From a virus, in IMG/VR virus record IMGVR_UViG_3300042351_000893, positions 1 through 24,798 of that record: a DNA stretch of 24,798 nucleotides; one strand, given 5' to 3'. Positions 1-14,427 of this stretch are shown in pieces. How positions within the stretch are numbered: position 1 is the first letter of the stretch; each line of letters opens with the position of its first letter. Under the pieces are notes generated by a model, which saw nothing but the letters and a program-made list of their open reading frames with translations, did no database searches and had not been told where the DNA came from. The translations under genes were made by a program, and so were the position numbers.

Positions 1-3000
1 AAAGCCACAGAAGATGTTGGTGCTTCATGGGACGGAGTAAGTCCCACAACACAGATGTTCTTGAATGAAGAACCCAAGTCAGATGAAGATATACTCACAG
101 ACTTTGTGGAGTTTTGTGTTGCAGAATTAACAATTGAACAGATGCCACGTGTTCGCCTGCGTAAAGATCCACAGTGGCCAGTGCGGCACAAGACGTTTGG
201 TCGCTACAACGACAATGAAAAAATGTTAGAAGTGGCCTGGGGACAACGACACATCATGGATGTGTTGCGCACAGTGGCACATGAACTCACACACAAACAT
301 CAACACGAACGTGATGGCAGTGACATGGGATCTGACGCAGGCGAAACTGGCAGTCCATACGAAAACGAAGCCAATGCTCGTGCCGGCGTACTCATGCGTA
401 ACTATGCCAAACTGCACCCGGAACATTTTGCTGCCGGCCAAACAGATGATTTAGCAGAAGCATCAGGATATATTCCCACAAAGAAGCAGGCCAAGGATCC
501 ACGCTTTAGCATGGCTCTGACCCGAGATGTACGTCCTGGTGCTGTGGGTAAAGAAGCAAACAAACTAGGACTAAAGACCAACAGTCAAGGACAACCAGGC
601 TTGTTAATGACCGGCTTGGCCAATGCACTGCGTGAGTTTAAAGAAACTGGGCAGTTGCCGCTGATATACGAAGATGAGTTGTTCGAAATCAACATGAGCA
701 CAGGTAGCCTGCGTCGTGAAGCGGCCAAGACCGGTGCTATTGCCGGCATGGAATTTGAAATGATTGTGCCCAATGTGGAAGGCGGCGATGACGACGGTCA
801 AATGGAAGCCGATTACAGTTACGATGAAGGTGTTAGTAGCATACAGGAGGCTTATGATTTCTTCTACGATGGAGATTACAACAGCCGCGGCGATGTCACT
901 AGACTGCGTGACCGGATGCAGGATCAATATTACGAATGGCTAAGTGAGTCGTTTGATACTCGTTGGGACGGAGACGAAGTTGAATTTGTTTACAACTACA
1001 TTAAAGAAAACGCCAGTGCAGATGAAATTGCAGAAATACTAGGTATAGAACCCGGCGATTACGGTGAATACCCAGAGCCCGATAGACAAGTATATCGCAA
1101 TGCTGCCGAAAAAATTGTTGAAGAAGGCTACGGCAACTACTGGTATGATGCCGCACGTGAATCCGCTCAAGAAGATTTTAATCAAAATGCAGATTTAGAA
1201 TCAGAATGGCTGGAAGATAATAATATCAATACCATGCAGGACGTTGAAAGCAATTATGATATAAATTGGCCTCACTTGTATTCACAGGGTGGCGGTGAGG
1301 CCAGTATCGAAGATGTTGCCAACGAATTTCAAGATGCTATAGGACGTGACGTTCGAGCCAGCGGCAACTACCACAGTGGCGGGGTAACAAGACCCAGCCC
1401 AACTGCACAACATTATATTGTGGAACCTGATGGCAGTTTAGAAGCCGATGACAGCGATGATGTAGGCCTGGAGTTTGTAAGTCCACCCTTGCCCATTGAC
1501 GATATATTAAGTGACTTGAACAAGGTTAAAAAGTGGGCCAAGGTATATGGTTGCTACACCAATGATTCAACAGGCCTGCACATCAACATATCTGTACCCA
1601 ACTACAGTAGAGAAAACTTGGACTTTGTTAAACTAGCCCTGTTAATGGGCGACGAGTATGTGCTGGACAACTTTGGTCGTGCTGGCAATACCTACGCTAA
1701 ATCAGCAATGAAATTGGTACGCGATCAAGTGCGCACTAAACCTGACGAAGCCGAACGTTTGCTGGACAAAATGAAAGGCAACCTGGACAGTTTGGCAAGC
1801 AAGGCCATACACTCAGGTGCTACTAGCAAGTATACCAGTATCAATACCAAAGACGGACACATTGAATTCCGCTCACCCGGTGGCGATTGGTTGGACGAAA
1901 ACTTTGACAAGATCGAAAACACTCTGTTGCGATTCACAGTGGCCATGAGTGCGGCCCTGAACCCCGAAATGTATCGCGAAGAATACTTGAAGAAACTGTA
2001 CAAGTTGTTGACGCAGGATCAAAAGGGTGACGATACTATCAAGTACTTCAGTGAATATGTGGCAGGCAAGATTCCTGCAGCTGCCTTGCGTAGTTTTGTT
2101 AAACAAGCACAACTAGAACGCAAAATTAAAAAAGATCCAACCGAAGGTAAGAAATATTGGTGGCGTGTGGGCCGCCCAGGTTTTGGTGCCAGTGTTGAAG
2201 TTGTTGCTACCAGCAAGGAAGAAGCAATTGAAAAAGGCCGGGCAGAATACCCAGATTGGGCCACGGCTAAAGATATGACTGCCAAACCGTTGCGTCCATA
2301 TGAAGAATCTCAGCAGACCTTTGTTTGGAAAGTCACTGGTAGCAGTGATTCTCCATATCAGAGTCAGGGTATAGAGGTTGTTGCTTCTACTGAATTTGAA
2401 GCAATGAAAAAAGCCAGAAAAGAATGGAATTTAAACACCAGTGGTGCCACCGAGGAAGAGTTCTTCAGAAACAACGGTTGGTCAGCTGTTCCTGTTCGCG
2501 AAGCACCTGCCGAGCAAACTCCCAAATATGAAATCTACAACAAACAAACTGGCAACTCAGTAGAGGATGCTGATGGAATCACCAATGATGAAGAGGCATT
2601 GGTTCGCCTCAATGATTACATTGAACACGGTCCACATAGCCTACAACGAGGTCAGGCTGAACGTATGTTTGGCATACGTACCGTCGGTGGAGTTGGAATT
2701 GTTGGCTTAGACATGCCAATAGCCGCAGGTCGTACAGCCACAAGCCCAACAGGACAGTGGAAAATTATTGACGGATTAAATCGCGAAGTATATCGTTTCC
2801 GTCCTGCAGAAAACACTAGAGCAAAAGCCAATGAGTTAGCCGCACTATGGGCCAGAGAAAACGACTTTGATGGCAACTATCAAGTTGAACCAGCAGAAGA
2901 AACGGCATCTACACCTGTGGCAGGATCCACCGCAGACCTAGCACAACAACGAGCTGTACCAGGCGCATTTACAGGTGCTTGGAAGATTGTAGATTCTGAT

Positions 3001-3132
3001 GGTAATGAACTGCATAGATTTTCCGGCATAGGCAATCAACAGCGTGATGCTAACCGTGTGGCCACACAGTGGTTGACCGACAATGGCTACAGCTATGGCA
3101 CAGATGTTACTGTGCTACCAATAGTGAGTTAA
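1..3132 (+). CDS. Zincin-amidoligase fusion protein with C-terminal repeats (5' end outside window)
   Basis: The reading frame is open from base 1, so the gene starts upstream; the first in-window ATG is at 55 and residues are numbered from it. Residues 76-80 are HELTH, an HExxH zinc-protease motif, followed by an acidic ENEANARAG stretch (about 103-111) that could supply the third ligand. A second domain runs from about GMEFEM (231) through GLEFVSPPLP (471-480), GLHINIS (507-513) and GHIEFRSPGG (601-610). This is the pattern of amidoligase_2-type enzymes, ATP-dependent amide-bond formers related to glutamine synthetase. Between them lies a very acidic, Tyr-rich stretch (about 240-430). The C-terminus holds two pairs of degenerate repeats (702-745 with 757-805, and 900-947 with 974-1020). 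The next gene begins one base after the stop. Inference: a cell-wall- or peptide-acting virion protein. The domain calls are by motif only. Confidence 0.7.
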   Translation, partial: KATEDVGASWDGVSPTTQMFLNEEPKSDEDILTDFVEFCVAELTIEQMPRVRLRKDPQWPVRHKTFGRYNDNEKMLEVAWGQRHIMDVLRTVAHELTHKHQHERDGSDMGSDAGETGSPYENEANARAGVLMRNYAKLHPEHFAAGQTDDLAEASGYIPTKKQAKDPRFSMALTRDVRPGAVGKEANKLGLKTNSQGQPGLLMTGLANALREFKETGQLPLIYEDELFEINMSTGSLRREAAKTGAIAGMEFEMIVPNVEGGDDDGQMEADYSYDEGVSSIQEAYDFFYDGDYNSRGDVTRLRDRMQDQYYEWLSESFDTRWDGDEVEFVYNYIKENASADEIAEILGIEPGDYGEYPEPDRQVYRNAAEKIVEEGYGNYWYDAARESAQEDFNQNADLESEWLEDNNINTMQDVESNYDINWPHLYSQGGGEASIEDVANEFQDAIGRDVRASGNYHSGGVTRPSPTAQHYIVEPDGSLEADDSDDVGLEFVSPPLPIDDILSDLNKVKKWAKVYGCYTNDSTGLHINISVPNYSRENLDFVKLALLMGDEYVLDNFGRAGNTYAKSAMKLVRDQVRTKPDEAERLLDKMKGNLDSLASKAIHSGATSKYTSINTKDGHIEFRSPGGDWLDENFDKIENTLLRFTVAMSAALNPEMYREEYLKKLYKLLTQDQKGDDTIKYFSEYVAGKIPAAALRSFVKQAQLERKIKKDPTEGKKYWWRVGRPGFGASVEVVATSKEEAIEKGRAEYPDWATAKDMTAKPLRPYEESQQTFVWKVTGSSDSPYQSQGIEVVASTEFEAMKKARKEWNLNTSGATEEEFFRNNGWSAVPVREAPAEQTPKYEIYNKQTGNSVEDADGITNDEEALVRLNDYIEHGPHSLQRGQAERMFGIRTVGGVGIVGLDMPIAAGRTATSPTGQWKIIDGLNREVYRFRPAENTRAKANELAALWARENDFDGNYQVEPAEETASTPVAGSTADLAQQRAVPGAFTGAWKIVDSDGNELHRFSGIGNQQRDANRVATQWLTDNGYSYGTDVTVLPIVS
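2158..2469 (+). repeat. Pair of degenerate protein repeats in the zincin-amidoligase protein
   Basis: Two units (residues about 702-745 and 757-805) share a W+V start, then a (V/I)EVVA(T/S) strand, then a helix of the form (K/F)EEA-K-R-E and a Trp. They look like tandem copies of a small beta-alpha domain. No function is assigned. Confidence 0.6.
2752..3114 (+). repeat. Second pair of protein repeats at the C-terminus
   Basis: Units at residues about 900-947 and 974-1020 share G-WKI(I/V)D, then a (V/L)-RF strand, then a helix with AN-(L/V)A--W and a final V-P. They are clearly related to each other, and more loosely to the preceding pair. They are separated by a Thr/Ala/Pro-rich linker with a LAQ segment. 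Confidence 0.65.
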
Positions 3133-3133
3133 C

Positions 3134-4201
3134 ATGCGAGCCAATGAATTTTTAATCGAATATAGAGATAGACTATTACAATATGTTAAGAGTCTGTTGC
3201 CCACTTGGCCTGAGTATGTCCTTAAAGATTGGCTAGTACCCAACAAAGGCAATTTTAGTAATCTCCCTGCAGACGCTGTTAAAAACGGCATTATAGAAAA
3301 AGTGCAAGGTGCAGGTCTTACTATTAACACTAAATGGCAACTGATACCCGATATGAAGTTTACAATGGATATGTTTGATCCAAAGACTAAACAACTATTA
3401 ATAGGCCGTGCCGGTGGGAGTAGTGATTTAGGTATGGGTGTTCCAAAAGACAAAGAAAGACATGCCACTCAAGCGGCATTAGCACAACAACAAGGTGGTG
3501 TTCGTAGAGAACCTGTGATACTTGTTAAACGTCCCGATGGTTATGATTTGCTAGAAGGTTGGCATAGAACTATTCAGCACTTTCATAAGTATCCAGATGG
3601 TTATACCGGTCCTGCTTATGTAGCTGTTGAACAGGGCCCACAAGGTGTGGCGGAAGGCGAAAGCAATGATACTGCTATAAGTTTATCCAAGTTAGGTAAA
3701 TTTCATCCTGGTGCAGATACACTTGCAGAGTTTGTGCCAGAAAGAGCAACTGCACAATATGCCCTGCATCCAGACAAATGGGAATCAACCTTTTACAGTT
3801 TGACCAACAAAGATTCTGACAAATTAAAATACTATGGTCCAAAAAAGATTTCAATTCCACCAGGAACTTTAGTAGGCGACATGGCCATTGCCAACAAGTT
3901 TTACAGAGCCAAGACACCTGAAGAACAAGAACAATATGCTGAATTATACAAAGCATCACTACAGCCATATCCAGTAGATGTCAGTGAGTATCGTATGCCT
4001 GAATTGTTGATTCCCAAGCAAGGTGTAGCAGAGAATTTTGCAGATGGTAAGAATCCTGGACGCAAGGGCTTGAGCAAGCGAGTAGGGATTCCTAAAAAAG
4101 CCACCTTGGGCCAACTGGAAAAGATTGCTGGATCCAGCACAGGTGAACGCCGCAGGATGGCACAGTGGCAACTAAATATGAGACGAGGTAAGAAAAAATG
4201 A
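3134..4201 (+). CDS. Modular protein with ParB-like domain and capsid-targeting-like N-terminus
   Basis: 355 residues. The N-terminus is MRANEFLIE, resembling the head-targeting peptide of T4 internal proteins. Residues 126-146 (REPVILV...GYDLLEGWHRT) match the ParB/sulfiredoxin-type nucleotide-binding fold: a hydrophobic strand followed by a GxHR motif. A QGVAEG linker at 170-175 ends this module. A second module (about 183-295) is rich in Tyr, Lys and Pro with no function I recognise. A second linker, QGVAEN (296-301), precedes a basic C-terminal module of the type NPGRKGLSKRVGIP...GERRRMAQWQ, which looks DNA- or RNA-binding by charge. The gene begins one base after the preceding stop and overlaps the next by ATGA, so it is translated as part of an operon. 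The ParB-like call is from motifs; biochemical activity is unknown. Confidence 0.65.
   Translation: MRANEFLIEYRDRLLQYVKSLLPTWPEYVLKDWLVPNKGNFSNLPADAVKNGIIEKVQGAGLTINTKWQLIPDMKFTMDMFDPKTKQLLIGRAGGSSDLGMGVPKDKERHATQAALAQQQGGVRREPVILVKRPDGYDLLEGWHRTIQHFHKYPDGYTGPAYVAVEQGPQGVAEGESNDTAISLSKLGKFHPGADTLAEFVPERATAQYALHPDKWESTFYSLTNKDSDKLKYYGPKKISIPPGTLVGDMAIANKFYRAKTPEEQEQYAELYKASLQPYPVDVSEYRMPELLIPKQGVAENFADGKNPGRKGLSKRVGIPKKATLGQLEKIAGSSTGERRRMAQWQLNMRRGKKK
3641..3658 (+). repeat. QGVAEG linker repeat, copy A
   Basis: CAAGGTGTGGCGGAAGGC in frame as Q-G-V-A-E-G, at a module boundary of the ParB-like protein. The core GGTGTGGCGGAA is identical in the copies at 4836 and 10976. Confidence 0.8.
4019..4036 (+). 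repeat. QGVAEN linker repeat, copy D (diverged codons)
   Basis: CAAGGTGTAGCAGAGAAT encodes Q-G-V-A-E-N in the same frame as copy A. It differs at synonymous positions, so the peptide rather than the DNA looks conserved here. It precedes the basic C-terminal module. Confidence 0.65.
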
Positions 4202-4632
4202 AAGCAAGTGAGTTTGTATTCGAAAAGTGGAGCAAAAAATACAAAAGCAGTATCAATTGCAGCCACCCTCGAGGCTTCTCACAAAAGGCGCACTGTGCCG
4301 GTAAACGAAAACAGAACGAATCAGTTGAAATGGAAATGGTGTGTGAAACATGTGGCATGTGTGAGGCACATGCCAACACACACGTGAATGAAAATCTTCG
4401 TGACTGGTTCAAAGACAAATGGGTACGCTTTGGACCCGACGGTAAAATACGTGGTGACTGTGCTCGAGGGTCGGAATCAGAAGGCAAACCCAAGTGTTTG
4501 CCACAGGCCAAAGCACATGCTCTGGGTAAAAAAGGCCGGGCCAGTGCCGCAGCCAGAAAACGCCGTAAAGATCCCAATGCCAATCGTTCAGGACCAGCAA
4601 TAAATGTCAGCACAAAAGGAACTAAAAAATGA
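4198..4632 (+). CDS. Cys-rich basic modular protein (DUF5872-like C-terminus)
   Basis: 144 residues. It starts MKASEFVFE, the same tag type as its neighbours. The first cassette (about 11-40) has a two-Cys pattern with CSHPRGFSQKAHCAGK. A CETCGMC cluster follows at 49-55 and is likely to bind zinc. The C-terminal half (about 66-140) contains DWFKDKWVRFGPDGKIRGDC, then KCLPQAKAHAL, then a highly basic AARKRRKDPN stretch; this resembles the family I know as DUF5872, whose function is not established. The gene overlaps the preceding and following genes by ATGA. High Lys/Arg content suggests nucleic acid contact. Whether Cys or basic residues bind metal or DNA cannot be decided from sequence alone. 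Confidence 0.6.
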   Translation: MKASEFVFEKWSKKYKSSINCSHPRGFSQKAHCAGKRKQNESVEMEMVCETCGMCEAHANTHVNENLRDWFKDKWVRFGPDGKIRGDCARGSESEGKPKCLPQAKAHALGKKGRASAAARKRRKDPNANRSGPAINVSTKGTKK

Positions 4633-6122
4633 ACATAAAAGATATCATTACAGAATCACAACACACTTGTCCGCACTGTGGTGGACCTGTGGTTGAATAT
4701 TCAGATCTGATGGAAAAGAAAGATGCCTGCTACTACAAGGTCAAGGCTAGTGCAAAAGTATGGCCCAGTGCTTATGCATCCGGTCGACTGGTACAGTGTC
4801 GCAAAAAAGGTGCGGGCAACTATGGCAACAAATCAGAAGGTGTGGCGGAAGGCTTTAACGATGTTGCCCAAATGGTAGTCAATGGCATTGCTATGTCCTA
4901 TTTCTTCTGGTTATTGTTCCGTTGGTTTAAAAATAAAGTATTATCTCCTGACGAAAGACTAGGAGTAAATCGAGATTTGAATTTAAATAGTGGCCGGGAT
5001 AGAGTTTATAAAGTTTATATCAACAGCAAAGATGTATCTTCAAAAGTATTAACTAAAAACGAAGCTTTTGAAGTTGTTAAATCAATGGCCAAAGAAACGC
5101 ACGATCCAAACACTTACTTTACAATATACAACACAGATACTAAGGCCATTGAATTTAGACATAACGTAGGTACTGGAGAAAGCATAGATGAACAAGGGGC
5201 GGCGGAAGCACAACTGGATGAAAAATGCTGGGACGGTTATCAACAACAGGGCATGAAGAACAAAGGTGGCCGTCAGGTTCCCAACTGTGTGTCTGCTGAA
5301 AGCATAGTAGAAGACTCTGATAACAAGTGCCCGCCTGCTACACAAGACATTACACTCAATCTCAAGAACAGACAAAAAGCCATTGATGACTATGGCTATG
5401 GGCCGCTAAATCCAGACATGCCCAACACTAAGTTCTGGATGAAAAAAGTTGATGAGTGGAACTTGGACTCAGTAGACGAAGCCAAGTCGAGCCTATGCGG
5501 CAACTGTGCGGCTTTTGATATACGTCAACACACCCTGGACTGCATTGCTCAAGGCATCGACAGTGACTCTCCTGCGGATGCAGCCGGTGTAATTGATGCA
5601 GGTGAGATGGGTTATTGTAAGTTCTTAAAATTCAAATGTGCCAGCCGTAGAACCTGCGATGCCTGGGTCACAGGCGGCCCACTCCGTGACAAACCCAATG
5701 CTGAAGAAGGCTTGACAGAAGAGTTTGATCTTATTGAATCTATTATCGAAGGCATTGCTGAACAAAATGGTGTAGATGCTGAAGCAGTATGGGAGGACCT
5801 AGAAAGCCTGACCGAAGATGAACTGTATGCGTTTGCTGTGACTTCGCAACTGAACGAAGACTGGCAAAAGGCCAACAAACGAGATCGTACTGCAGGCATG
5901 AGTCAAAAGGCTGTGAATGCTTATCGCAGAGAGAATCCTGGTTCTAAACTAAAGACTGCTGTGACTACCAAACCCAGCAAACTAAAGCGGGGTAGCAAGG
6001 CCAGCAAGCGTAGAAAGAGTTATTGTAGCCGCAGTCGCGGACAAATGAAGATGCACAGTATTTCATGTGCCAAAACGCCAGACAAGGCCATCTGTAAAGC
6101 ACGTCGTCGCTGGAACTGCTGA
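4629..6122 (+). CDS. Multi-cassette Cys-rich protein with a membrane-like segment
   Basis: 497 residues built from separable cassettes. (1) MNIKDIITE tag plus CPHC and two further Cys with a KVWPSAYASG module (1-68). (2) Linker GVAEG at 71-75. (3) A hydrophobic segment at about 82-100 (VVNGIAMSYFFWLLFRWF) that could span a membrane, followed by a mixed alpha/beta domain (110-180). (4) Linker QGAAEA (189-194). (5) CWDGYQQQGMKNKGG...PNC (200-220). (6) A six-Cys module (290-343: CGNC, DC, GYC, FKC, RTC). (7) An acidic helix with IAE (375-378). (8) A basic tail with SYCSRSRGQMKMH (464-476) and a final Cys. It overlaps its neighbours by ATGA and TGATG. I recognise the cassettes as types that recur in marine phage proteins, but no enzyme. 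Membrane insertion or DNA contact during infection is inference. Confidence 0.6.
   Translation: MNIKDIITESQHTCPHCGGPVVEYSDLMEKKDACYYKVKASAKVWPSAYASGRLVQCRKKGAGNYGNKSEGVAEGFNDVAQMVVNGIAMSYFFWLLFRWFKNKVLSPDERLGVNRDLNLNSGRDRVYKVYINSKDVSSKVLTKNEAFEVVKSMAKETHDPNTYFTIYNTDTKAIEFRHNVGTGESIDEQGAAEAQLDEKCWDGYQQQGMKNKGGRQVPNCVSAESIVEDSDNKCPPATQDITLNLKNRQKAIDDYGYGPLNPDMPNTKFWMKKVDEWNLDSVDEAKSSLCGNCAAFDIRQHTLDCIAQGIDSDSPADAAGVIDAGEMGYCKFLKFKCASRRTCDAWVTGGPLRDKPNAEEGLTEEFDLIESIIEGIAEQNGVDAEAVWEDLESLTEDELYAFAVTSQLNEDWQKANKRDRTAGMSQKAVNAYRRENPGSKLKTAVTTKPSKLKRGSKASKRRKSYCSRSRGQMKMHSISCAKTPDKAICKARRRWNC
4836..4853 (+). repeat. EGVAEG linker repeat, copy B
   Basis: GAAGGTGTGGCGGAAGGC, 17 of 18 bases identical to copy A. 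It is in frame and separates the Cys module from the hydrophobic segment of the 497-residue protein. Confidence 0.8.
5193..5210 (+). repeat. QGAAEA linker repeat, copy E
   Basis: CAAGGGGCGGCGGAAGCA encodes Q-G-A-A-E-A. It keeps the GCGGAA core and lies directly before the CWDGY cassette. Confidence 0.65.
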
Positions 6123-6310
6123 TGCGAGCCAAAGAAATCGTTCGAGGTGCAAAGCAATGGACTGCCAAAGTGCGTGTTCAAAATCCTGGATATGTGGGCT
6201 GGGTTGATGCAGTGGTCTGGGCTCCCAACACTCATGTGGCCAGACAAATGATCAAAGCACAGTACCGCATTGAAGATTGGCACGTGGGCTCAATCAAAGA
6301 ACTGCGTTAA
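6122..6310 (+). CDS. Small protein, hypothetical (62 aa)
   Basis: The start overlaps the previous stop as TGATG, so it is probably translationally coupled. The first bases, ATGCGAGCCAAAGAA, are nearly the same as those of the gene at 3134, although the protein tag MRAKEIVRG lacks the Glu at the likely cleavage position. The body alternates strands and a helix (KQWTAKVRVQ, GWVDAVVWAPNTHVARQMIK), a pattern of a small single-domain fold with conserved Trp. It ends convergently with the desaturase gene; the two stop codons share the four bases TTAA at 6307-6310. Function unknown. Confidence 0.55.
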   Translation: MRAKEIVRGAKQWTAKVRVQNPGYVGWVDAVVWAPNTHVARQMIKAQYRIEDWHVGSIKELR

Positions 6311-7011
6311 CTACGTAAGCGAGCCAGTCCTACTAGTCTAAATACTGTGAGCCACATCCATCCTGCATCAAATTCAAACCAACGACGGCTCAGTCGAGGG
6401 TTAGCAGGATCCAGATGATGGTTGTTATGCAGGCATTCGCCACCAACAACAATATCCCAAGGCACAATGTTTCTGCTGTGATCTTTAGTTTCGCCATTTC
6501 TATATCCCCACCAATGTCCAATGCCGTTGATAACTCCGGCTGCCCAGAACGGTATCCATGCCATTTGTATACCCCAGATTAACACACCCCACACACCAAA
6601 CAACGCAACATCAACTGCCAGCATTAACACAATGCCCAGTCTGCTGTGTGCAGTGTACACATTGCGTTCCATCCAGTCATCCGGTGTACCTACGCCATAT
6701 TGTGCCACCATGTCAGCATCTCGGCTGGCTGAGTGATACAGGCCTGCGCCACGGAACAACACACGACCTATGCCGTACACATGCGGAGTATGTGGATCAC
6801 CTTCTGCATCACTAAATCTGTGATGTTTGCGATGGATGCTAACCCATTGTTTGGTCACCATGCCGGTAGTTCCCCATAACCAAAAGCGCATGAAGTGTTC
6901 TAACACAGGAGTAAAAACAATGCCGCGATGTGCTTGCCCGCGATGTAGGTATAATGTAACACAGATTATAGTGATATGTGTGACTATTAGGGTATAGATA
7001 AGTTCAGTCAT
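6307..7011 (-). CDS. Fatty acid desaturase (acyl-lipid/acyl-CoA type)
   Basis: 234 residues from the ATG at 7011. Longer in-frame starts would run into the preceding gene and have no domain support. All three histidine boxes of the membrane di-iron desaturase family are present: HRGQAH (23-28), HRKHH (60-64) and HNNHH (195-199), with the extra His in GIGHWWG (166). Hydrophobic stretches lie at about 5-22 and 126-165. Family members introduce a double bond into acyl chains using O2 and an electron donor. The protein is shorter than the usual 300 or so residues because the N-terminal membrane segments are reduced. It follows the radical SAM gene by 31 bases, and a TAAATA box lies 4 bases before its ATG. 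The role is probably remodelling of host membrane lipids during infection, which is inference. Confidence 0.88.
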   Translation of the reverse strand: MTELIYTLIVTHITIICVTLYLHRGQAHRGIVFTPVLEHFMRFWLWGTTGMVTKQWVSIHRKHHRFSDAEGDPHTPHVYGIGRVLFRGAGLYHSASRDADMVAQYGVGTPDDWMERNVYTAHSRLGIVLMLAVDVALFGVWGVLIWGIQMAWIPFWAAGVINGIGHWWGYRNGETKDHSRNIVPWDIVVGGECLHNNHHLDPANPRLSRRWFEFDAGWMWLTVFRLVGLARLRS

Positions 7012-7015
7012 TGAG

Positions 7016-7021
7016 TATTTA
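7016..7021 (-). promoter_or_regulatory. TAAATA late-promoter-like box before desaturase
   Basis: On the minus strand the sequence reads TAAATAC-TCA-ATG. It matches the T4 late -10 element TATAAATA in six of its eight positions and would start transcription at or next to the AUG. No Shine-Dalgarno sequence is visible. Confidence 0.4.
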
Positions 7022-7042
7022 AGCAAAACTACTGCTAAATTG

Positions 7043-8995
7043 TTATTCGGGGCGATCCCAGGTTCCGGTGCCTTGCCATGCATGAGTAAATGCATAGGTT
7101 TTTCCGTCCTGAGTGGGATTGCCATTGGGGCCGCCTGCTTGTAATTCTGTAGCAAAATCCGCATGCCACGCACCATGTCTGCCAATTTCAAATTTGTAAT
7201 GTGCTTTAAAATAATCATTGGGACGCAAGCCATCATTCAAACACGATCCAGGCCCGAATTCTGGCAAATCAATTGTGGGATCAAATCTCACATCCAATTT
7301 AAATTCGCCCACTGCCAACCATAATACTCGTAACAACGGCCATATTTCGTTTACCAACGAATCAGCAATGGGATTTGTTGACAGCTTGATTATGGCATAG
7401 TCAAACATTTCGTAGGGTATGATATCTTGTATGTTGTTTTTGTCGTACAACAATTCATAGTGCGATTCAATACCCGGGCGTTCCGGTCGGGATTGAATAC
7501 CTGGCGGGGTCCGGTTGTCGCAGTGCAAATGGTTGAGTATTATGTTAGCGGATTTATATCTGACTAATCTGTGCAGAATTGTATTTGTATAATCATTGGT
7601 CACCCAATGTCCGCCATAGTGCCCACGACTTACATCAAAGTCTTCTCTATTCTGTGACAACGGCGTGTCTGGATTTAGATTACAGATTCCAAAGTTTCGG
7701 CCAGTGATGGTGGTATTTCTTGTGCGCCATAGTAGTGTCATTGTTTCGGCAGCATCATTTTGTGTCTCGCCCGGGAATCCTGTAAACCAATTTGTAAATG
7801 CGTGTAGGCCAATCACTGTCATGTCAGTTAGATTCTGTTCTACTGCTTCACGTTTGACATTTTTTTTCATCAATTGAAGAACATGATTAGATCCTGATTC
7901 AACTCCAAAATTTAATACTGCACACCCACTGGATTTGAGATCTTGCAAGTATTTGATGTCCATACGATGATCACATCTAGCATATCCTAGCCAGTCAATA
8001 TCTATTTTACGTGCTACAATTTCTTGAGCAAACTGACGTAGCTCTGTTAGGTCACCGTTGACCAAACTGTCAATGAACCAAACTGTTTTAATTCCGTATT
8101 GATTGTAATTGAATTCCACTTCGTCAACAATGCTTAACGCCTGCCTGTTACGATATCTCCAGAATGTGGTTTCACTGCAAAACTGACATTTGGCCACACA
8201 GCCTCGACTCATTTCAGAAGATATACCTGTGCCCATAGTGTACAGGCTTAGATCAAAATCACTGTAGTCTGGTATGGGCATACTGTCAAGGTCAATTCGA
8301 ATACCTTTGTCGTGGCGATGTATATGCTCGGTAATTACTATGTTATTTTCAACCTTGTCTAGTAGATCCATGAAAATAATCTCTCCTTCACCTACCACAA
8401 TGTGGTCCATTAACTCCGGTGCAATAAGTTGTTCTTGCGTGGCCTGTGGCCCACCTGCTATAATTCTTACATCTGGGATACGCTGTCTTAGTTGTTGTAT
8501 AATCCAGTTGGTACATTGGTTATTGCTGTAATAAATGCTGAAACCCACAACAGTGGGGTTAAACGCAACAATCTTGTCAATGTATTCGATCAACAACGGT
8601 TCAATAGATCTGTGTATGTCAGTAAAATATGTTTCATTTTTCCAGCGCCAATCATTGTATCCGTTCCACTGGTCTTTATCTCCGTAGTGATAGGCCGCGA
8701 TGTTTATGTCAAAACATTGTGTGGCATACCCGGATGCTTTAGATAGTGCGGTCAGTCTAGCAAGATTATAAGGTGGAATATATGGACCCCATTCTGGGGC
8801 AAGTATCAGTGCCACACGAGTGTTTCTTGACACATTTGATTGTAAATTTACAGGGGTTAAATTTTTTCTTGTGCGCTCGGGCCTAGCGGCCATGCGTTTC
8901 ATGGTTTCAATCATAGCTAAATCACGTGCGCCGCCGTCACCTGTTACTACCGGTGCGGTGCGTTTAGATACTATAGGAATTGTTATGTTGGCCAT
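7043..8995 (-). CDS. B12-binding-type radical SAM protein
   Basis: 650 residues from the ATG at 8995; the 20 extra in-frame residues upstream are rejected because they would cover the divergent promoter gap. Residues about 60-215 form a Rossmann-like domain (RVALILAPEWG, TVVGFSIYYSNNQ, IIAGGPQAT, VVGEGE) typical of the cobalamin-binding half of this family, although I do not see the classical DxHxxG motif. The radical SAM cluster is CVAKCQFC (C266, C270, C273), followed by a TIM-barrel-like region with NFGVESGS. The C-terminal part (about 480-650) is less familiar. Such enzymes methylate or rearrange unactivated carbons or phosphorus; the substrate cannot be inferred. It is divergent from the + strand gene at 9047 and upstream of the desaturase. 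Confidence 0.85.
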   Translation of the reverse strand: MANITIPIVSKRTAPVVTGDGGARDLAMIETMKRMAARPERTRKNLTPVNLQSNVSRNTRVALILAPEWGPYIPPYNLARLTALSKASGYATQCFDINIAAYHYGDKDQWNGYNDWRWKNETYFTDIHRSIEPLLIEYIDKIVAFNPTVVGFSIYYSNNQCTNWIIQQLRQRIPDVRIIAGGPQATQEQLIAPELMDHIVVGEGEIIFMDLLDKVENNIVITEHIHRHDKGIRIDLDSMPIPDYSDFDLSLYTMGTGISSEMSRGCVAKCQFCSETTFWRYRNRQALSIVDEVEFNYNQYGIKTVWFIDSLVNGDLTELRQFAQEIVARKIDIDWLGYARCDHRMDIKYLQDLKSSGCAVLNFGVESGSNHVLQLMKKNVKREAVEQNLTDMTVIGLHAFTNWFTGFPGETQNDAAETMTLLWRTRNTTITGRNFGICNLNPDTPLSQNREDFDVSRGHYGGHWVTNDYTNTILHRLVRYKSANIILNHLHCDNRTPPGIQSRPERPGIESHYELLYDKNNIQDIIPYEMFDYAIIKLSTNPIADSLVNEIWPLLRVLWLAVGEFKLDVRFDPTIDLPEFGPGSCLNDGLRPNDYFKAHYKFEIGRHGAWHADFATELQAGGPNGNPTQDGKTYAFTHAWQGTGTWDRPE

Positions 8996-9000
8996 ATAGA

Positions 9001-9006
9001 TACTTA
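9001..9006 (-). promoter_or_regulatory. TAAGTA late-like box before B12 radical SAM gene
   Basis: The minus strand reads CAAATAAGTATCT then TAT-ATG. Twelve of the 13 bases before the spacer match the element upstream of the gene starting at 17322. The box ends 5 bases before the ATG. Confidence 0.35.
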
Positions 9007-9036
9007 TTTGTAATTTAACTATGCGGTTAATAACAC

Positions 9037-9042
9037 TAAATA
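9037..9042 (+). promoter_or_regulatory. TAAATA late-promoter-like box before the 93-aa gene
   Basis: The sequence is CTAAATAC-ACA-ATG, almost the same as the minus-strand element before the desaturase (TAAATAC-TCA-ATG). It would give a leaderless transcript starting at the ATG. Confidence 0.4.
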
Positions 9043-9046
9043 CACA

Positions 9047-9328
9047 ATGAAACAATTTATTCGTGTGCTATGTGACGTTGATTGCAGTTGGACTGAAACT
9101 CCACCTGTTTACCGCGTTTACGTAGATGACGAATTATTTGCTGAAAGAACCTGGCGTTGGCGAGATGAGTATCTTGAAGAAATGATACAGATCGAAGCAG
9201 AGCCAGGCGAATATGTAATCAGTTACGAACTTGTCAATTCTCCCGGTGCCACCATACGTGTTTTAAATATGCGTGTGGATTACGGTCCCGGAAAAATCAA
9301 AGGAAATCTACTAAAGATACTCACATGA
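9047..9328 (+). CDS. Small beta-rich protein, hypothetical
   Basis: 93 residues. The pattern is alternating strands: VYRVYVDDELFAERTW, MIQIEAEPGEYVISYELV, ATIRVLNMRVDYG, with many Tyr, Trp and acidic residues. This would suit an immunoglobulin-like or carbohydrate-binding sandwich, but I do not recognise a named family. It leads the operon that runs to 12545 and overlaps the next gene by ATGA. A TAAATA box 4 bases before the ATG and no Shine-Dalgarno sequence suggest late, leaderless expression. Function unknown. Confidence 0.6.
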   Translation: MKQFIRVLCDVDCSWTETPPVYRVYVDDELFAERTWRWRDEYLEEMIQIEAEPGEYVISYELVNSPGATIRVLNMRVDYGPGKIKGNLLKILT

Positions 9329-9525
9329 GAGCTCAGGAATTTATCAAAGAAAATGCATCCGTTGGTGCCACCAGTAGTGGTAGCGTTGCCACTGTGGCCA
9401 TGCCCATGGGCGGCATGCAGTCAAGAAATCCCGATAGTTTCTTTTCTGGTAAATATACCACGGACCCTTTTCCCAATACCCCGAAAAGTATGAGAAAGAA
9501 AGCAAGGAAAACAAATGTTAAGTGA
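9325..9525 (+). CDS. Small tagged protein, capsid-targeting-like N-terminus
   Basis: 66 residues. MRAQEFIKE closely resembles the T4 head-targeting peptide with its I-x-E cleavage position. The rest is low complexity: a Gly/Ser/Ala/Val stretch (SVGATSSGSVATVAMPMGG), then Asn/Pro/Thr-rich, then a basic tail (KSMRKKARKTNVK). After removal of the tag it would be a short, basic, probably disordered peptide, as expected of a packaged DNA-neutralising internal protein; this is inference. It overlaps both neighbours (ATGA upstream, 11 bases downstream). Confidence 0.6.
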   Translation: MRAQEFIKENASVGATSSGSVATVAMPMGGMQSRNPDSFFSGKYTTDPFPNTPKSMRKKARKTNVK

Positions 9526-9955
9526 TTTACTAAAGACCTATTTGGCCAGTACATTTTCGTACTATTTGAAGGCACACTATTTTCATTGGAATGTGGAAGG
9601 GCCAGACTTTGGTGAATTGCACAAGTTTTTATCTAAGATCTACGAAGATGCGTTTGATGCTATAGATCCCATTGCTGAATACATCCGCACCACAGAAGAA
9701 TATGCCCCTGGCAGTCTCAGCCGCTTTTTAGAACTAACACAGATACCGGATCAAACCAAAGTGCCACGTGCTCGCTTGATGCTGGAAGAATTACTCGCAG
9801 ACACCCAAATAATGATCAACCTTAGCCGCCAAGTTTTCGAAGCCAGTGCTGCCGAAGGTCGTGAAGACATTGCAAACTTTGCCGCAGAACGCCAAAGCCA
9901 ACACGGCAAGTATCAGTGGCAACTGAAAAGTTATTTGAAGGACGCGAGGGCATAA
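9515..9955 (+). CDS. Dps/ferritin-like DNA-protection protein
   Basis: 146 residues, predicted all-helical. The N-terminal half has KAHYFHWNVEGPDFGELHKF and DAIDPIAEYIR. Ferroxidase ligands fit the Dps pattern with the spacing of bacterial Dps (His, +12 His, +15 Asp, +4 Glu): H24, H36, D51, E55. The length is slightly below bacterial Dps (about 160-170) because the N-terminal tail is short, so the Lys-rich DNA-binding tail is missing. Dps proteins oxidise Fe(II) with peroxide and protect DNA. An AAGGA ribosome site lies about 7 bases before the ATG, inside the preceding gene. In this phage it may protect DNA from oxidative damage in the cell or virion; the latter is speculation. Confidence 0.85.
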   Translation: MLSDLLKTYLASTFSYYLKAHYFHWNVEGPDFGELHKFLSKIYEDAFDAIDPIAEYIRTTEEYAPGSLSRFLELTQIPDQTKVPRARLMLEELLADTQIMINLSRQVFEASAAEGREDIANFAAERQSQHGKYQWQLKSYLKDARA

Positions 9956-9956
9956 C

Positions 9957-10655
9957 ATGGATGAAATTTACACGATAATGCAGAGACTTGCATTGATTGA
10001 AAGCACTATCACACCAGATAGCGTTTCAAAAGGATTGAACGCACAACAACGGTCTGTGCCACAAATGCCTGCATTATTTAAAATGCCCGATCAAGGTCCA
10101 GTACTAGGCGGCAATCCCAACAAGAAAGCACCCAGTGCTGGTTACATGGTTGGCTCCAGCGAAAGTGTCGAGCACGACGAGGAAGCCCTGGAAGAAGCAG
10201 TGACCAGTGAAGACAAGTTAGACAAGGTTAAAAAGTCCTTTGCTGACTACCTTGACAGTATTGCTGACGAAAAGAAAGACACTGACTTAAAAGACCCGGT
10301 TCGAGTAGATCGTGACATCAGTAAAAAGCCTGCGAAAGATGCCAGCATCATTGCCAAACAAATCACTGCTGTTGCAGAAGATCCCACTGACGAGAATCCC
10401 ATTGTACAAATGCCCACAACACCTGTGCAAGAACCAACCTATGCGGAATCAGCACCGGTTAAAACCATTGCATTAGAAGACGGTCGTTCATGTGAAATAT
10501 ACGGAGACGAACGTGCGGGATTTGAAATTCGTCATGGTGACCGTGCAATGAAGAGCCGTTTTAAAAATCTAGACCAAGCACAGATGGCCTTGGAAATGTA
10601 CCAGGCTAGACAACGCCGACAAGATCTGTCAGCTGACTACGTAGAGGAAGCATAA
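9957..10655 (+). CDS. Acidic modular protein, hypothetical
   Basis: 232 residues. The N-terminal 10-50 region, LALIES...SVSKGLNAQQRSVPQMP, is followed by a Pro/Gly-rich stretch (PVLGGNPNKKAPSAGYMVG). The middle is strongly charged and alternates acidic and basic blocks (EHDEEALEEAV, DKVKKS, EKKDTDLKD). The C-terminal 45 residues (about 175-220: ALEDGRSCEIYGDERAGFEIRHG) look like a small beta hairpin domain plus helix. VAE (about 139-141) and LIE (14-15) near the ends of segments match the putative head-protease consensus. It begins one base after the Dps stop and overlaps the next gene as TAATG. I do not recognise a named domain; a structural or head-associated role is inference. Confidence 0.5.
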   Translation: MDEIYTIMQRLALIESTITPDSVSKGLNAQQRSVPQMPALFKMPDQGPVLGGNPNKKAPSAGYMVGSSESVEHDEEALEEAVTSEDKLDKVKKSFADYLDSIADEKKDTDLKDPVRVDRDISKKPAKDASIIAKQITAVAEDPTDENPIVQMPTTPVQEPTYAESAPVKTIALEDGRSCEIYGDERAGFEIRHGDRAMKSRFKNLDQAQMALEMYQARQRRQDLSADYVEEA

Positions 10656-11839
10656 TGAACCTAAATGATCTATACGAAATGAGAGACCCACGTGATGCAT
10701 ATGAACGTGACGTTGCTAACAGCACCAGTGGCTTTGGCAAAGACTCACAAGCATATCGTGCAGACGGTGGCGCCAATGACGAGAATCATGCACTTGACCA
10801 GCAGTCAAGTACTTGGTATATTCGCCTCAATGGAAAACTGATCCGAGACAAATCAGGCAATCCTTATGCATTCCAAGATAAGGCTGCCGCAAACAAAGCC
10901 GCACGTACAATGCAGGCCAAACTGTTCAACAAAGACAAAGAGTTTATGTTGACTACCAACCCCAACGATAAACCTCAAGGTGTGGCGGAAACTGGCAGCA
11001 ATGATGTTGAAGAATTTTTACACAAAGTTGCACGATCCGGCGACAACGGGTTTGACATGCTATACAATGCACAACAAGGCAAATACGGCCGAGAAATTGA
11101 ACAATCTATACAAGACATGTATGATGATATCTCTATCGATACAGGCTATCACGGCGATGATGACTTTGAACAAATTTATGATCGTATGTTGGATAACATT
11201 GAAGCCGATTACGGTCAGCAAGGCATGGCGGAAGCCAAAGTAGACAGCGATGGCCACTCTGTTGACCACGCTGACTCGGGCGAATACGATTACGAAGGTG
11301 ACCAAGCAAAAGATCAATTGAACACTATTGTACGTGCGGCTCGCAGACTCAACGGCATGTTGGATGACAACGAAAATATGCCAGAGTGGGTACAAATGAA
11401 AATTACTAATGCGGCTGACTATATTGACACAGCGGCTGATTACATTGAATCCAATCAAGAACCCGAACTGGCTGAGGGCGAGAGGGGCCGTGGCCGTCCT
11501 CCATCGGGCCAGCAGGATACTACGCCTGTTACCCCAGGACGAGTTGAAAAGACCGCAACCGGTATTCGTCATCATGCAGACGCTAGTCGTTACGGCGGAA
11601 CAGAGCCGGACGCGGAAGATGATCACTTGATGAGCAAATCGCATATTTCTAGACTAGGCAAAATGACAGAGCCTGATATTGATGAAGGCGAAAAAGTCGG
11701 CAATATGGATGCTGACAAGTTTGATGCGGCTATGTCTCGTCTCAAACAGTTGGCCGGTGCAGGCCCAATGAAAACTGTGTACGACCCTACCAAGCGTGTG
11801 TATCGAAACGTTCCAACAGCAGTGCAACCTAAAAAATGA
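10655..11839 (+). CDS. Modular acidic protein with QGVAET and QGMAEA linkers
   Basis: 394 residues. Segments: (1) residues 1-107, STWYIRLNGKLIRDKSGN...AAANKAARTM, a small beta-alpha module. (2) Linker QGVAET (108-113). (3) An acidic helical stretch with GDNGFDMLYNAQQGKYG (about 120-188). (4) Linker QGMAEA (189-194). (5) EYDYEGDQAKDQLNTIVRAA...MPEWVQMKITNAADYIDT, a helical module of a type recurrent in marine phages (about 210-272). (6) LAEGERGRGRPPSGQ, an AT-hook-like GRGRP patch that may contact DNA. (7) An acidic C-terminus. Overlaps the next micro-ORF by ATGA. Function unknown; module boundaries with xAE motifs are the main clue. Confidence 0.6.
   Translation: MNLNDLYEMRDPRDAYERDVANSTSGFGKDSQAYRADGGANDENHALDQQSSTWYIRLNGKLIRDKSGNPYAFQDKAAANKAARTMQAKLFNKDKEFMLTTNPNDKPQGVAETGSNDVEEFLHKVARSGDNGFDMLYNAQQGKYGREIEQSIQDMYDDISIDTGYHGDDDFEQIYDRMLDNIEADYGQQGMAEAKVDSDGHSVDHADSGEYDYEGDQAKDQLNTIVRAARRLNGMLDDNENMPEWVQMKITNAADYIDTAADYIESNQEPELAEGERGRGRPPSGQQDTTPVTPGRVEKTATGIRHHADASRYGGTEPDAEDDHLMSKSHISRLGKMTEPDIDEGEKVGNMDADKFDAAMSRLKQLAGAGPMKTVYDPTKRVYRNVPTAVQPKK
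10976..10993 (+). repeat. QGVAET linker repeat, copy C
   Basis: CAAGGTGTGGCGGAA is 15 of 15 bases identical to the first part of copy A, about 7.3 kb away. It is in frame and followed by ACT. The context downstream (GGCAGCAATGAT) also resembles copy A (GAAAGCAATGAT). Confidence 0.8.
11219..11236 (+). repeat. QGMAEA linker repeat, copy F
   Basis: CAAGGCATGGCGGAAGCC encodes Q-G-M-A-E-A. It keeps the TGGCGGAAG core and lies at a module boundary. Confidence 0.65.
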
Positions 11840-11913
11840 GCGCAAACGACTATCCTGTATATCCAGAAGATGACGGATACGATCGTTTCCGCAATCCCTA
11901 CTCACCAGTATAA
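11836..11913 (+). CDS. 25-residue micro-ORF, Tyr/Pro/Asp-rich
   Basis: The ATG overlaps the previous stop (ATGA) and its TAA overlaps the following ATG (TAATG), so it is perfectly packed between two genes. The peptide begins MSANDYPVYPEDDG and ends NPYSPV; it has four Tyr, four Pro and many acidic residues. It is too short for a family call. The packing argues that it is translated rather than an accident. Confidence 0.5.
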   Translation: MSANDYPVYPEDDGYDRFRNPYSPV

Positions 11914-12545
11914 TGCTGTTAAGTGACTTCAGAATCAAAAACTTAGACAAACTAGATAACATTCTAGTGGATCTCTGCAGTCAAATAGTTCAAGGCAAAC
12001 GTGACCACACTGACCTGGGCATGGTGGCTGCCGCAGTACTAGATCCCAACGACAATTGTGTAAGTGCCATAAACTATCCTGCAGAAGATGGTTCACGTGT
12101 ACACGCAGAACGTGCGGCAATGGATGCTTATCAGGAACAGTTTGGCGACATTCCCCCGGGTAGCATCATAATCACAACACTGAGTCCTTGCACAGAAGAC
12201 ATGCCAGATCGGCATGGTGAAAGTTGCACAGACCTAATCAACCAGTCTGGTGTACACAAAGTGTATGCAGGCTACGCAGATCCATCACAGGACGAAGTGC
12301 GTAAAAAGTTTCATGTCAAGACCACAACCAACCCACGCATCCGACAACTGTGCAAGGCATTTGCTGATACATTTTTAAAAGATCATTTAGACGAACTAAG
12401 TTTCTTGGGGTCACAGTGTACCAAAGACTGCTCTGGGCACCGTGCAGGATACGAATGGAGCAAGCGCAAAGGTCTAAAGCAGGGCAACTCACCCTGGTCA
12501 CCAAGTTTTAACAAAGGTGCCGCATTGGCAGTTGCCGGCAAATAA
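11913..12545 (+). CDS. RibD/CDA-type deaminase with C-terminal Cys module
   Basis: 210 residues. Residues 37-110 contain the cytidine-deaminase-like zinc site: HAE at 64-66 (catalytic Glu) and SPCTEDM...ESCTDL with C93 and C105. PC-x11-C is a longer spacing than the usual PCxxC but is typical of RibD-like or related deaminases. The family deaminates pyrimidine or pterin-like rings using a zinc-bound water. The C-terminal third (about 160-210: FLGSQCTKDCSGHRAGYEWSK, then NKGAALAVAGK) is a separate phage-type module with two more Cys and a His. Its start is coupled to the micro-ORF, and it ends the operon, followed by a structured gap. The substrate is uncertain: dCMP, cytidine or a deazaflavin-type precursor. 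Confidence 0.75.
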   Translation: MLLSDFRIKNLDKLDNILVDLCSQIVQGKRDHTDLGMVAAAVLDPNDNCVSAINYPAEDGSRVHAERAAMDAYQEQFGDIPPGSIIITTLSPCTEDMPDRHGESCTDLINQSGVHKVYAGYADPSQDEVRKKFHVKTTTNPRIRQLCKAFADTFLKDHLDELSFLGSQCTKDCSGHRAGYEWSKRKGLKQGNSPWSPSFNKGAALAVAGK

Positions 12546-13730: not shown

Positions 13731-14427
13731 AGAATTTTTAGATCAATACAATGATAAGAATACATTTGAGTTGTTGCCACTTCCAGAAGGCGATGTGCAT
13801 TTCCAAGCTGATTGGATTTTAAAACACAGTCAAGCACCGTGGCTAGAAATTCTTGGTATTGACGCACCCTACGCAGAAATGTACCAAGAAGCACAGGCCT
13901 TGCGAGACATGTTTGTATTCCATCGCGGCGAAGAAGCGGGAATGAAGGGCTGGCGTAGTTTGGCTGTACATGGCATCGGTGCTACAATGACTAATGTTCC
14001 GCAGACATATGGCCTAGATCCTGACAAAGTCAAGTACAATTGGACTGAAATACAAGATCAGTGCCCGGTTACTGTGAAATTTTTTAAAGATGTGTTTCCG
14101 TACAATCAATATCAACGACTACGATACATGTTGGTCGAACCTGGAGGATACATTGCACCCCATAGCGACAATGTAAACAATACCCCTGGTGCCGCTGTAA
14201 ACATTTCTCTAAACAATCCAGAGGATTGCAGACTAACCAACATACATGGCACTGTGCCTTTTAGAAATAGCGGCAGTGTATTTTTGTTCAACAACCACTA
14301 TCAGCATGCAGTACATAACAACAGTGATACTGATCGATTCCACATGATTGTACACGGCGCATGGCGCAACCCAGAGTGGAATCACTTGGTTGTAAACAGC
14401 TATCGAGAGGCGATAAAAAATGGTTGA
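13714..14427 (+). CDS. Aspartyl/asparaginyl beta-hydroxylase-like 2OG-Fe(II) oxygenase
   Basis: 237 residues. The double-stranded beta-helix core contains RLRYMLVEPGGYIAPHSDN with the iron-binding H150 and D152, then AVNISLNNPEDCRL, then GSVFLFNNHYQHAVHNNS with H198 or H201 as the third ligand, and R208 for 2-oxoglutarate. This is the Asp/Asn hydroxylase (cupin-like) type, which hydroxylates amino acid side chains or small molecules with O2 and 2-oxoglutarate. The N-terminal 120 residues are helical and not recognised. Start overlaps the radical SAM gene; AAGGA lies upstream. The substrate is unknown and may be the radical SAM product. Confidence 0.82.
   Translation: MEQWIKEFLDQYNDKNTFELLPLPEGDVHFQADWILKHSQAPWLEILGIDAPYAEMYQEAQALRDMFVFHRGEEAGMKGWRSLAVHGIGATMTNVPQTYGLDPDKVKYNWTEIQDQCPVTVKFFKDVFPYNQYQRLRYMLVEPGGYIAPHSDNVNNTPGAAVNISLNNPEDCRLTNIHGTVPFRNSGSVFLFNNHYQHAVHNNSDTDRFHMIVHGAWRNPEWNHLVVNSYREAIKNG

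Follow-up and report, generated by a model that had tools for sequence, protein, structure and literature searches.

The 24,798-base IMG/VR virus record IMGVR_UViG_3300042351_000893, analyzed here in its entirety and referred to as the window, encodes several proteins that start with nearly the same nine residues. This short N-terminal peptide, or tag, is the subject of the present analysis, together with a 66-amino acid (aa) protein, encoded from position 9325, in which the tag is followed by a copy of the N-terminus of the mature capsid protein gp23. The source is a giant freshwater virus of bacteria, and the window DNA polymerase, which is 97% identical to the polymerase of a 346,856-base record (G001), identifies it as a giant T4-like phage. 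G001 and three further relatives (G002, G003 and G004, with proteins shared between G003 and G002) were chosen by their DNA polymerases, with the tags ignored. The called N-termini number 24 in the window, 423 in G001, 448 in G002, 206 in G003 and 154 in G004. The pool for broader comparisons comprised 314 sequences, namely, the window, 309 fetched loci and G001-G004; most of the fetched loci were selected for resemblance to window proteins, so that this is an enriched sample.

A shared N-terminal tag on otherwise unrelated proteins

The tagged genes of the window are the following:

3134..4201, plus strand: tagged modular protein of 355 aa, with folded blocks joined by QGVAE linkers; tag MRANEFLIE at 3134-3160
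4198..4632, plus strand: tagged basic, Cys-rich module protein of 144 aa; tag MKASEFVFE; matches PHROG 727 (E value 1.5e-14) and gp160 of phage S-CREM2 (2.2e-7)
4629..6122, plus strand: tagged modular protein of 497 aa, with DUF6321 at the end (E value 1.8e-8); tag MNIKDIITE
6122..6310, plus strand: 62-aa protein with the decayed tag MRAKEIVRG
9325..9525, plus strand: 66-aa protein with the tag MRAQEFIKE, the copy of the mature gp23 N-terminus and a basic tail
9352..9396, plus strand: capsid N-terminus copy NASVGATSSGSVATV, residues 10-24 of the 66-aa protein, directly after the predicted cut
10655..11839, plus strand: modular protein with the 8-residue tag MNLNDLYE

The sequence-only reading that preceded this work had listed five of these N-termini, with 6122 as a weaker match, and all five were confirmed as starts of open reading frames (ORFs) with ATG. 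The weaker match appears to be a decayed copy: its homolog at L279:3538-3729, which reads MKAKEIITEGAKQW, starts with MKAKEIITE. Overlooked in that list were the tag of the 10655 protein, which fits an 8-residue form, and the copy of the mature capsid N-terminus in the 9325 protein. The N-termini at 3134, 4198, 4629 and 9325 conform to the consensus M-[K/R/N]-x-x-[E/D]-[F/I]-[I/L/V]-x-E, and the likeness exceeds chance expectation: a strict pattern fits 3 of the 24 window N-termini, against a mean of 0.02 and a maximum of 1 in 300 shuffles of the N-termini, which served as the null model throughout, and a looser 9-residue pattern fits 4 of the 24 (null 0.00, 200 shuffles), or 5 of the 24 together with the 8-residue form. 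The strict and looser patterns were both composed with the tags already known. Among 3135 non-redundant N-termini, the 8-residue form occurs in 66, compared to a shuffled mean of 2.4 and a maximum of 8.

The whole relatives, chosen by polymerase, allow a fairer comparison, and further tagged genes were found in them. The strict tag is present at 6 of the 423 N-termini of G001 (null 0.21, maximum 2); the counts for G002 (2/448; null 0.17, maximum 2), G004 (1/154; null 0.10, maximum 1) and G003 (0/206; null 0.10, maximum 2) do not exceed the null maxima, so that the strict pattern, taken by itself, shows no significant excess in these three records. The looser 9-residue and 8-residue forms, taken together, were detected in 7/423 (G001), 6/448 (G002), 2/154 (G004) and 4/206 (G003) cases, with null means of 0.05-0.18 per form (about 0.3 in the shuffles for G001 and G002). 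Both patterns are rare at internal methionines (3/2096 in G001 and 0/2322 in G002).

Across the pool, the strict tag was identified on 195 of the 3666 distinct proteins with an N-terminus (mean 2.24, maximum 5 in 50 shuffles), and 9 looser matches bring the total of tagged proteins to 204. By homology immediately after the tag, these fall into 63 groups, or 24 if any homology between the bodies is linked. The logo over the tagged groups is M-[RK]-[AI]-x-[ED]-[FI]-[IL]-x-E, with A, S, R or N as the next residue, or, in a tighter form, M-[RK]-A-x-E-F-[IL]-T-E with A or S next; the P3 residue is Ile in 40 of the 63 groups, Leu in 17, Val in 4, as in the window 4198 protein, and Thr in 2. Thus, as in T4-type proteins bearing the capsid-targeting sequence (CTS), a short N-terminal label is common to otherwise unrelated proteins, and its end fits the L/I-x-E motif of the gp21 protease. 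In a Pfam comparison of 62 tagged representatives, the matches listed (25 of 33 families) included DUF6321 (6), GH19 (4) and GP88 (2), along with single cases of a zeta-toxin-type kinase, NUDIX, GNAT, M48, ParB, sigma-70 region 4, dCMP deaminase and amidoligase. In one fetched locus, L284, several adjacent genes share the tag at the start and then diverge in the bodies; this tagged run (L284:1476-6919) encodes a NUDIX protein (E value 1e-25), a chitinase-like GH19 protein and a weak ADP-ribosyltransferase-like match (E value 0.032). In the window itself, a dCMP-deaminase-like protein is encoded at 11913-12545; a tagged protein of 67 aa (L227:180-380) is similar to its C-terminal part (CTKDCSGH...), so that this gene looks as if a cargo module had been fused to an enzyme.

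In principle, the shared N-terminus might have no role in targeting and might instead serve translation initiation or expression, or be a leader inherited by common descent. The Arg2 codon is AGA in 28 of the 31 MRA-type groups, which points to some nucleotide preference, and shared leaders could spread through recombination. However, the codons for Ala3, Phe6 and Ile/Leu7 of the tag vary whereas the residues are constant, indicating that the peptide is the conserved entity, and [IL]-x-E is retained in both tag lengths. On this evidence, combined with two observations described below, we consider this explanation very improbable.

The closest known counterparts of the tag are in phage T4, where the CTS directs cargo to the core and gp21 cleaves after L/I-x-E, according to the available part of a published account (PMC9026906). 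In the T4 record, the internal proteins IPII and IPIII start with MKTYQEFIAE, followed by A. The window-type proteins resemble these in the short EF-I-x-E-like N-terminal label before the predicted cut, in the differing bodies, and in the presence of gp21 in the phage group. They differ in that the label is usually 8-9 residues long, without Tyr/Phe at position 4, and marks tens of body groups, often in neighboring genes and including enzyme domains. The ejection and inner-body proteins of SPN3US and phiKZ are likewise packaged in the head and cut by a gp21-like protease, which in phiKZ acts after S/A-X-E, but in the available part of the same account no common short label is described for them (PMC9026906).

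The prohead protease and virion proteins of related phages

A gp21-like protease was detected in 3 of 9 relative records, G001, G002 and G004 (E values 1.5e-25 to 2.0e-24); the other six records searched are shorter, and the protease was not found in the 24.8-kb window record, which is a fragment. Thus, it is through the relatives that the phage is considered to encode a gp21-type protease. The family is represented in all 5 reference phages. In P-SSM2, S-SRM01 and S-CREM2, the relatives of the 4629 protein are encoded within the head-neck-terminase gene cluster.

S-CREM2 (OR473000) encodes three proteins that match the window cluster at E <= 1e-4: gp137, gp156 and gp160. The 4629 protein matches gp137 with an E value of 9.8e-40 and gp160 with 1.7e-21, and gp156 matches (E value 1e-36) the complete G001 form of the polyprotein with which the window begins:

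1..3132, plus strand: zincin-amidoligase polyprotein, C-terminal part; Amidoligase_2, E value 1.9e-7

In G001, this polyprotein spans 55341-59072 and consists of 1243 aa; the window part corresponds to residues 253-1243 (88% identity over 976 aligned residues), with the nucleotidyltransferase-like N-terminal part upstream of the window, and the gp156 match probably falls in this nucleotidyltransferase-like start. All three S-CREM2 proteins are present in the published virion Table 3, with 4 (gp137), 6 (gp156) and 7 (gp160) unique peptides (PMC10665884). They resemble the window proteins in their DUF6321, Cys-rich and nucleotidyltransferase-like modules and, in the case of gp160, also in a copy of gp23. 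For DUF6321, we found no link to phages in the open-licence PMC literature.

A pattern composed for the T4/cyanophage-type label, M[KQR].[FYL]..[FY][LIFV].E, is matched by 4 of the 214 S-CREM2 proteins (null 0.01, maximum 1 of 200), namely, gp6, an S-adenosylmethionine (SAM) hydrolase, gp13, gp136 and gp154, a cytidylyltransferase. Each of these four is also listed in the virion table, which comprises 52 proteins (PMC10665884); this argues against the expression-feature explanation. As far as the available part of that paper goes, its authors note the packaging of the SAM hydrolase and the cytidylyltransferase and name no signal (PMC10665884). These proteins are similar to those of the window in having T4-type labels on different bodies, but the label is the 10-residue T4/cyanophage form and the bodies are unrelated to those of the window at E <= 1e-4. 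The same pattern is matched by 3 of 269 proteins in T4 (gp61.1, IPII and IPIII, whereas IPI, which starts with MKTFKEFTST, does not fit), 3 of 333 in P-SSM2 and 3 of 364 in S-SRM01. With the pattern already fixed, a scan of S-SZBM1 identified two labeled proteins, 191 and 192, of which 192 is a DUF6321-type protein that starts with MKTFKQYITE, followed by A. A further S-SZBM1 protein, S-SZBM1_194 (L466:23253-24001), contains an internal TYREFIAE followed by G, similar to the T4 IPIII label, within a longer protein. The S-SM1 protein T4-GC 119, annotated as hypothetical in its record, was not used as virion evidence.

Several observations weigh against a simple reading of the tag as a head-packaging label. 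The 63 groups do not represent a genome-wide rate because the loci were mostly fetched for their likeness to window proteins. The S-CREM2 virion proteins gp137, gp156 and gp160 carry no N-terminal label, and the window-type tag patterns match 0 of the 214 S-CREM2 proteins, so that the module and the label are separable. The N-termini of gp6 and gp136 were known before the T4/cyanophage pattern was composed, leaving gp13 and gp154 as new matches. Neither of the two labeled S-SZBM1 proteins is among the 30 rows of the published virion Table 1 (PMC9146016), which is shallower than the S-CREM2 table (30 vs 52 proteins); thus, the label receives strong support from one phage, S-CREM2, and none from another, S-SZBM1, and the two point in opposite directions. 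Finally, the zincin-amidoligase polyprotein, which the sequence-only reading had entertained as a further member, starts with MNISELDSYNL in its full-length G001 form and thus has no tag. The sequence-only reading is supported in part. Injection of the tagged proteins with the DNA, which it also proposed, would be a possible further step; its central proposal, that these proteins are packaged in the head and processed, appears well supported, by inference from the logic of the tag, its spread over the body groups, the gp21 genes of the relatives and the S-CREM2 virion table (3/3 and 4/4), and packaging and cutting are the best reading of the tagged proteins.

A copy of the capsid N-terminus in the 9325 family

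The gp23 of G001 reads ...RKYLKE followed by NASAGSTAAGNIATLNRVILPVIRR, and its mature form, after KYLKE, starts with NASAGSTAAGNIATL; the 66-aa window protein reads MRAQEFIKE followed by the copy given above. We scanned each genome with its own gp23 stretch as the query and ranked the non-self proteins by score. In G001, G002 and G004, the best other protein was a tagged protein of 66-72 aa, with scores of 53 in G001 (next 32; 102,929 positions), 42 in G002 (next 34; 108,056 positions) and 34 in G004 (next 30; 44,066 positions). gp23 was not found in the G003 record, in which the stretch from G002 retrieved the same top protein, a result that is not independent. Conversely, the 66-aa protein as the query retrieved gp23 in 7 of 8 relatives, through residues 4-25 (E values 0.001-0.006); at 66 aa, with the match to gp23 confined to these residues, it does not comprise a full gp23/HK97-fold capsid protein.

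A profile of nine 16-residue gp23 stretches matched 51 of 3836 proteins at E <= 10, including 3 gp23 and 48 others, 20 of the latter at E <= 0.01. Among the 48, 42 are small proteins of <=90 aa in which the match starts at residue 7-13, right after the tag, and in 41 of these 42, the copy either starts with Glu or is immediately preceded by it. The mean net charge over the final 25 residues of these small proteins is 5.3 (minimum 1). The copy is located late in larger proteins in three cases (L328, L172 and L293), and three of the 48 matches look like chance. That gp23 residues begin exactly after the tag Glu in the 9325 family is the second observation that argues against the tag being an expression feature.

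In the window, the mimic gene is flanked by the following genes:

9047..9328, plus strand: upstream gene, for a protein of 93 aa without a tag
9515..9955, plus strand: Dps/ferritin-like protein, untagged, with an 11-nucleotide (nt) overlap with the mimic gene; Ferritin, E value 1.6e-20

A gene for a 90-125 aa protein is located upstream of 34 of the 42 mimic genes, and a Dps-like gene downstream of 36, called by Pfam in the window and by start and length only in the relatives. The overlap is 11 nt in 12 cases and 38 nt in 20, that is, in 32 of the 36 relatives, so that co-translation is possible and the mimic and Dps-like genes may be translated together.

In T4, the N-fist of gp23 clips capsomers together. 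In the parts of the respective papers available, the gp23 propeptide is 65 residues long (PMC9026906); the N-fist corresponds to residues 66-91 of mature gp23 (gp23*) and is disordered in five portal-facing subunits (PMC7136217); and it contacts four subunits and forms on expansion (PMC9958956). With the T4 gp23 stretch as the query, the best other match among the 269 called T4 proteins is gp61.1 (48, next 32). This 54-aa protein, annotated as hypothetical, reads MKTFKEFIKE followed by DMVAGDSGGNPENISIGTTSGAVVNKGP and has a lysine-rich tail. Its residues 3-39 align without gaps to gp23 residues 58-94, with Glu10 on Glu65, and this is its best match in the PDB (E value 0.0067). We found no discussion of T4 gp61.1 in the main text of the open-licence PMC literature.

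Like gp61.1, in which the label up to the predicted cut is followed immediately by the copy of the mature gp23 N-terminus and then by a lysine-rich tail, the 9325 family combines a gp23 copy after a (predicted) gp21-type cut with a basic tail. The copied sequence is that of the N-fist/N-arm of gp23*, and the small proteins lack the HK97-fold body. Unlike the window gene, gp61.1 adjoins the primase gene 61 and copies the T4-type N-fist, so that the two are likened by plan only; because the 9325 gene precedes the Dps-like gene rather than being located beside gene 61, we take its product to work like gp61.1 without classing it as a member of that family.

A search with gp61.1 at E <= 0.01 retrieved 1386 of 50,697 phage records; the annotations of some of the 60 matches listed refer to capsid or head morphogenesis proteins, and the ten matching records that were opened contained small or mid-sized ORFs distinct from gp23. 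Of 10 phages searched with T4 gp23, 6 yielded the 61.1 gene at E <= 0.001. Sinorhizobium phage Phosso encodes a 65-aa protein with the same organization, through a weak match (E value 0.0385). In S-CREM2, gp160 contains FTGAAAPEGPVAGYDP, compared to FTGAAAPGGPNAGFDP in its own gp23 (score 70, next 33). The window-type proteins score 37-53 with the gp23 arm of their own genome and 14-24 with that of T4 (4/4), and the T4-type proteins 67-93 with their own arm and 16-26 with that of G001 (9/9). Judging from these scores, the copy follows the gp23 of its own clade.

Some results limit the docking interpretation of these proteins. The G004 score is near background, and in P-SSM2 and S-SRM01 no copy of gp23 stood out from background. 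In the long gp61.1 forms of RB43, KP15, Minot, CC2, Ci1 and PC-Liy1, which account for six of the ten records opened, and similarly in V07, the copy is located late in the protein and there is no N-terminal label. Within nine Straboviridae, there was no significant own-pair preference between the small protein and gp23 (permutation p 0.097; tested without RB43, for which gp23 was not extracted, and V07, whose gp23 stretch is the same as that of PC-Liy1). The weak G004 score and the missing own-pair preference, along with the short, Ser/Thr/Gly-rich character of the stretch, would fit a likeness to gp23 that was left over from gene duplication, or that arose by coincidence between Ser/Thr/Gly/Ala-rich sequences, and has no role in docking. 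The shared register after the cut (41/42), the recurrence in T4 and S-CREM2, where the copy matches a different gp23 sequence in each case, and the own-arm scores in both clades argue otherwise and make such an origin improbable. The late, unlabeled copies in RB43, KP15, Minot and CC2 speak for a different possibility, namely, that the 9325 protein and gp61.1 regulate shell assembly, as a chaperone, a decoy, or a size or vertex switch, in the cell or the prohead, and are not retained in the head. The small size of these proteins and the functional importance of the copied gp23 stretch fit such a role as well. However, the Glu with which the copy begins in 41 of 42 cases suggests that these proteins act within the prohead once proteolysis has occurred, and S-CREM2 gp160, copy included, is found in virions, according to the table cited above; regulators of this kind, accordingly, seem unlikely to us, if less so than a remnant.

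Module borders, neighboring genes and implications

The bodies of the tagged modular proteins are joined by short linkers:

3641..3655, plus strand: QGVAE linker 1 of the 3134 protein, residues 170-174
4019..4033, plus strand: QGVAE linker 2 of the 3134 protein, residues 296-300
4836..4850, plus strand: EGVAE linker of the 4629 protein, residues 70-74
10976..10990, plus strand: QGVAE linker of the 10655 protein, residues 108-112
11219..11233, plus strand: QGMAE linker of the 10655 protein, residues 189-193

The window contains 4 occurrences of GVAE, against 0.15 expected. Internal [QEKP]G[VM][AT]E motifs number 186, and 160 of these are located within 10 residues of a break in homology, compared to 82.3 at random (maximum 105 in 200 draws). 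In a structural model of the 3134 protein (mean predicted local distance difference test score, pLDDT, 78.6; predicted template modeling score, pTM, 0.46), pLDDT falls below 50 only at residues 95-103, 168-177 and 298-311, and the latter two segments coincide with the linkers, the first linker lying within its segment and the second at the edge. The model has no match in the PDB at E <= 0.001 (153 at E <= 10); its weak structural matches are free-serine-kinase, ParB and sulfiredoxin-like, and Pfam ParB_N was detected in one tagged relative.

Because the linkers end in a hydrophobic-x-E sequence followed by Gly/Ala, lie at the module borders and, in the single protein modeled, fall in disordered joints, they could be additional sites at which gp21 cleaves the cargo into individual modules. 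At the DNA level, however, the linker is nearly one word: QGVAE is encoded by CAAGGTGTGGCGGAA in 67 of 110 cases, and Ala by GCG in 101 of 110, compared to 7% of the Ala codons overall. This linker word occurs in frame in a called gene in 103 of 104 cases, with the remaining one at a contig end. Furthermore, P4-P3 is G-V/M and not F/I-I/L as in the tags (partly fixed by the search pattern), and S-CREM2 gp137, gp156 and gp160, as well as gp136, lack a linker of this type. Given the DNA-level conservation, we retain a simple gp21 site as a rival, possible but doubtful; the joints may instead be DNA-conserved module borders that serve for recombination rather than cutting. No link between GVAEG and phages was found in the open-licence PMC literature.

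Among the other genes of the window, a fatty acid desaturase (6307-7236, minus strand, E value 4.9e-13) is located between the two tagged clusters, and an Asp/Asn beta-hydroxylase-like gene (13714-14427, E value 8.2e-13) lies downstream. Two radical SAM proteins are supported by Pfam, at 7043-9055 (B12-binding) and 12651-13730 (SPASM). In G001, 18 proteins each contain a single copy of GGEP, a 4-mer characteristic of radical SAM enzymes, with GGEPL in 11.

Taken together, these observations make it likely that the shared N-terminus is a head-targeting, protease-cut label like the T4 CTS and that the 9325 product mimics the N-fist of gp23. Under this scenario, the label would carry unrelated cargo into the prohead core, the gp21-type prohead protease would remove it after [ILV]-x-E, and the cargo would then remain with the DNA. 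The predicted new N-terminus of the 66-aa protein is the copy of the mature gp23 N-terminus; the freed mini-protein might dock in N-fist sockets that no gp23 fist occupies, the likeliest places being near the portal or the pentameric vertices, and the basic tail would then face the DNA. A broader proposal, to which we give about as much credence as doubt, is that T4-like phages carry packaged mini-proteins which, after the label is cut, expose copies of the N-fist and plug or line N-fist sockets from inside, with gp61.1, the 9325 family and the gp160 stretch as separate examples, and that, in giant freshwater phages, the same kind of label marks a whole set of modular cargo reshuffled at DNA-conserved joints.

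An internal protein that imitates the clasp of the shell itself would be a capsid part that we did not find described in the open-licence PMC literature, and the gp23 copy suggests a testable role for T4 gp61.1, a gene without an assigned function in the phage that has been studied best. The capsid label of T4 is known from a few proteins; in giant freshwater phages, it would be a general cargo code. Because this label can be read from sequence, packaged, and possibly injected, proteins should be predictable genome by genome.

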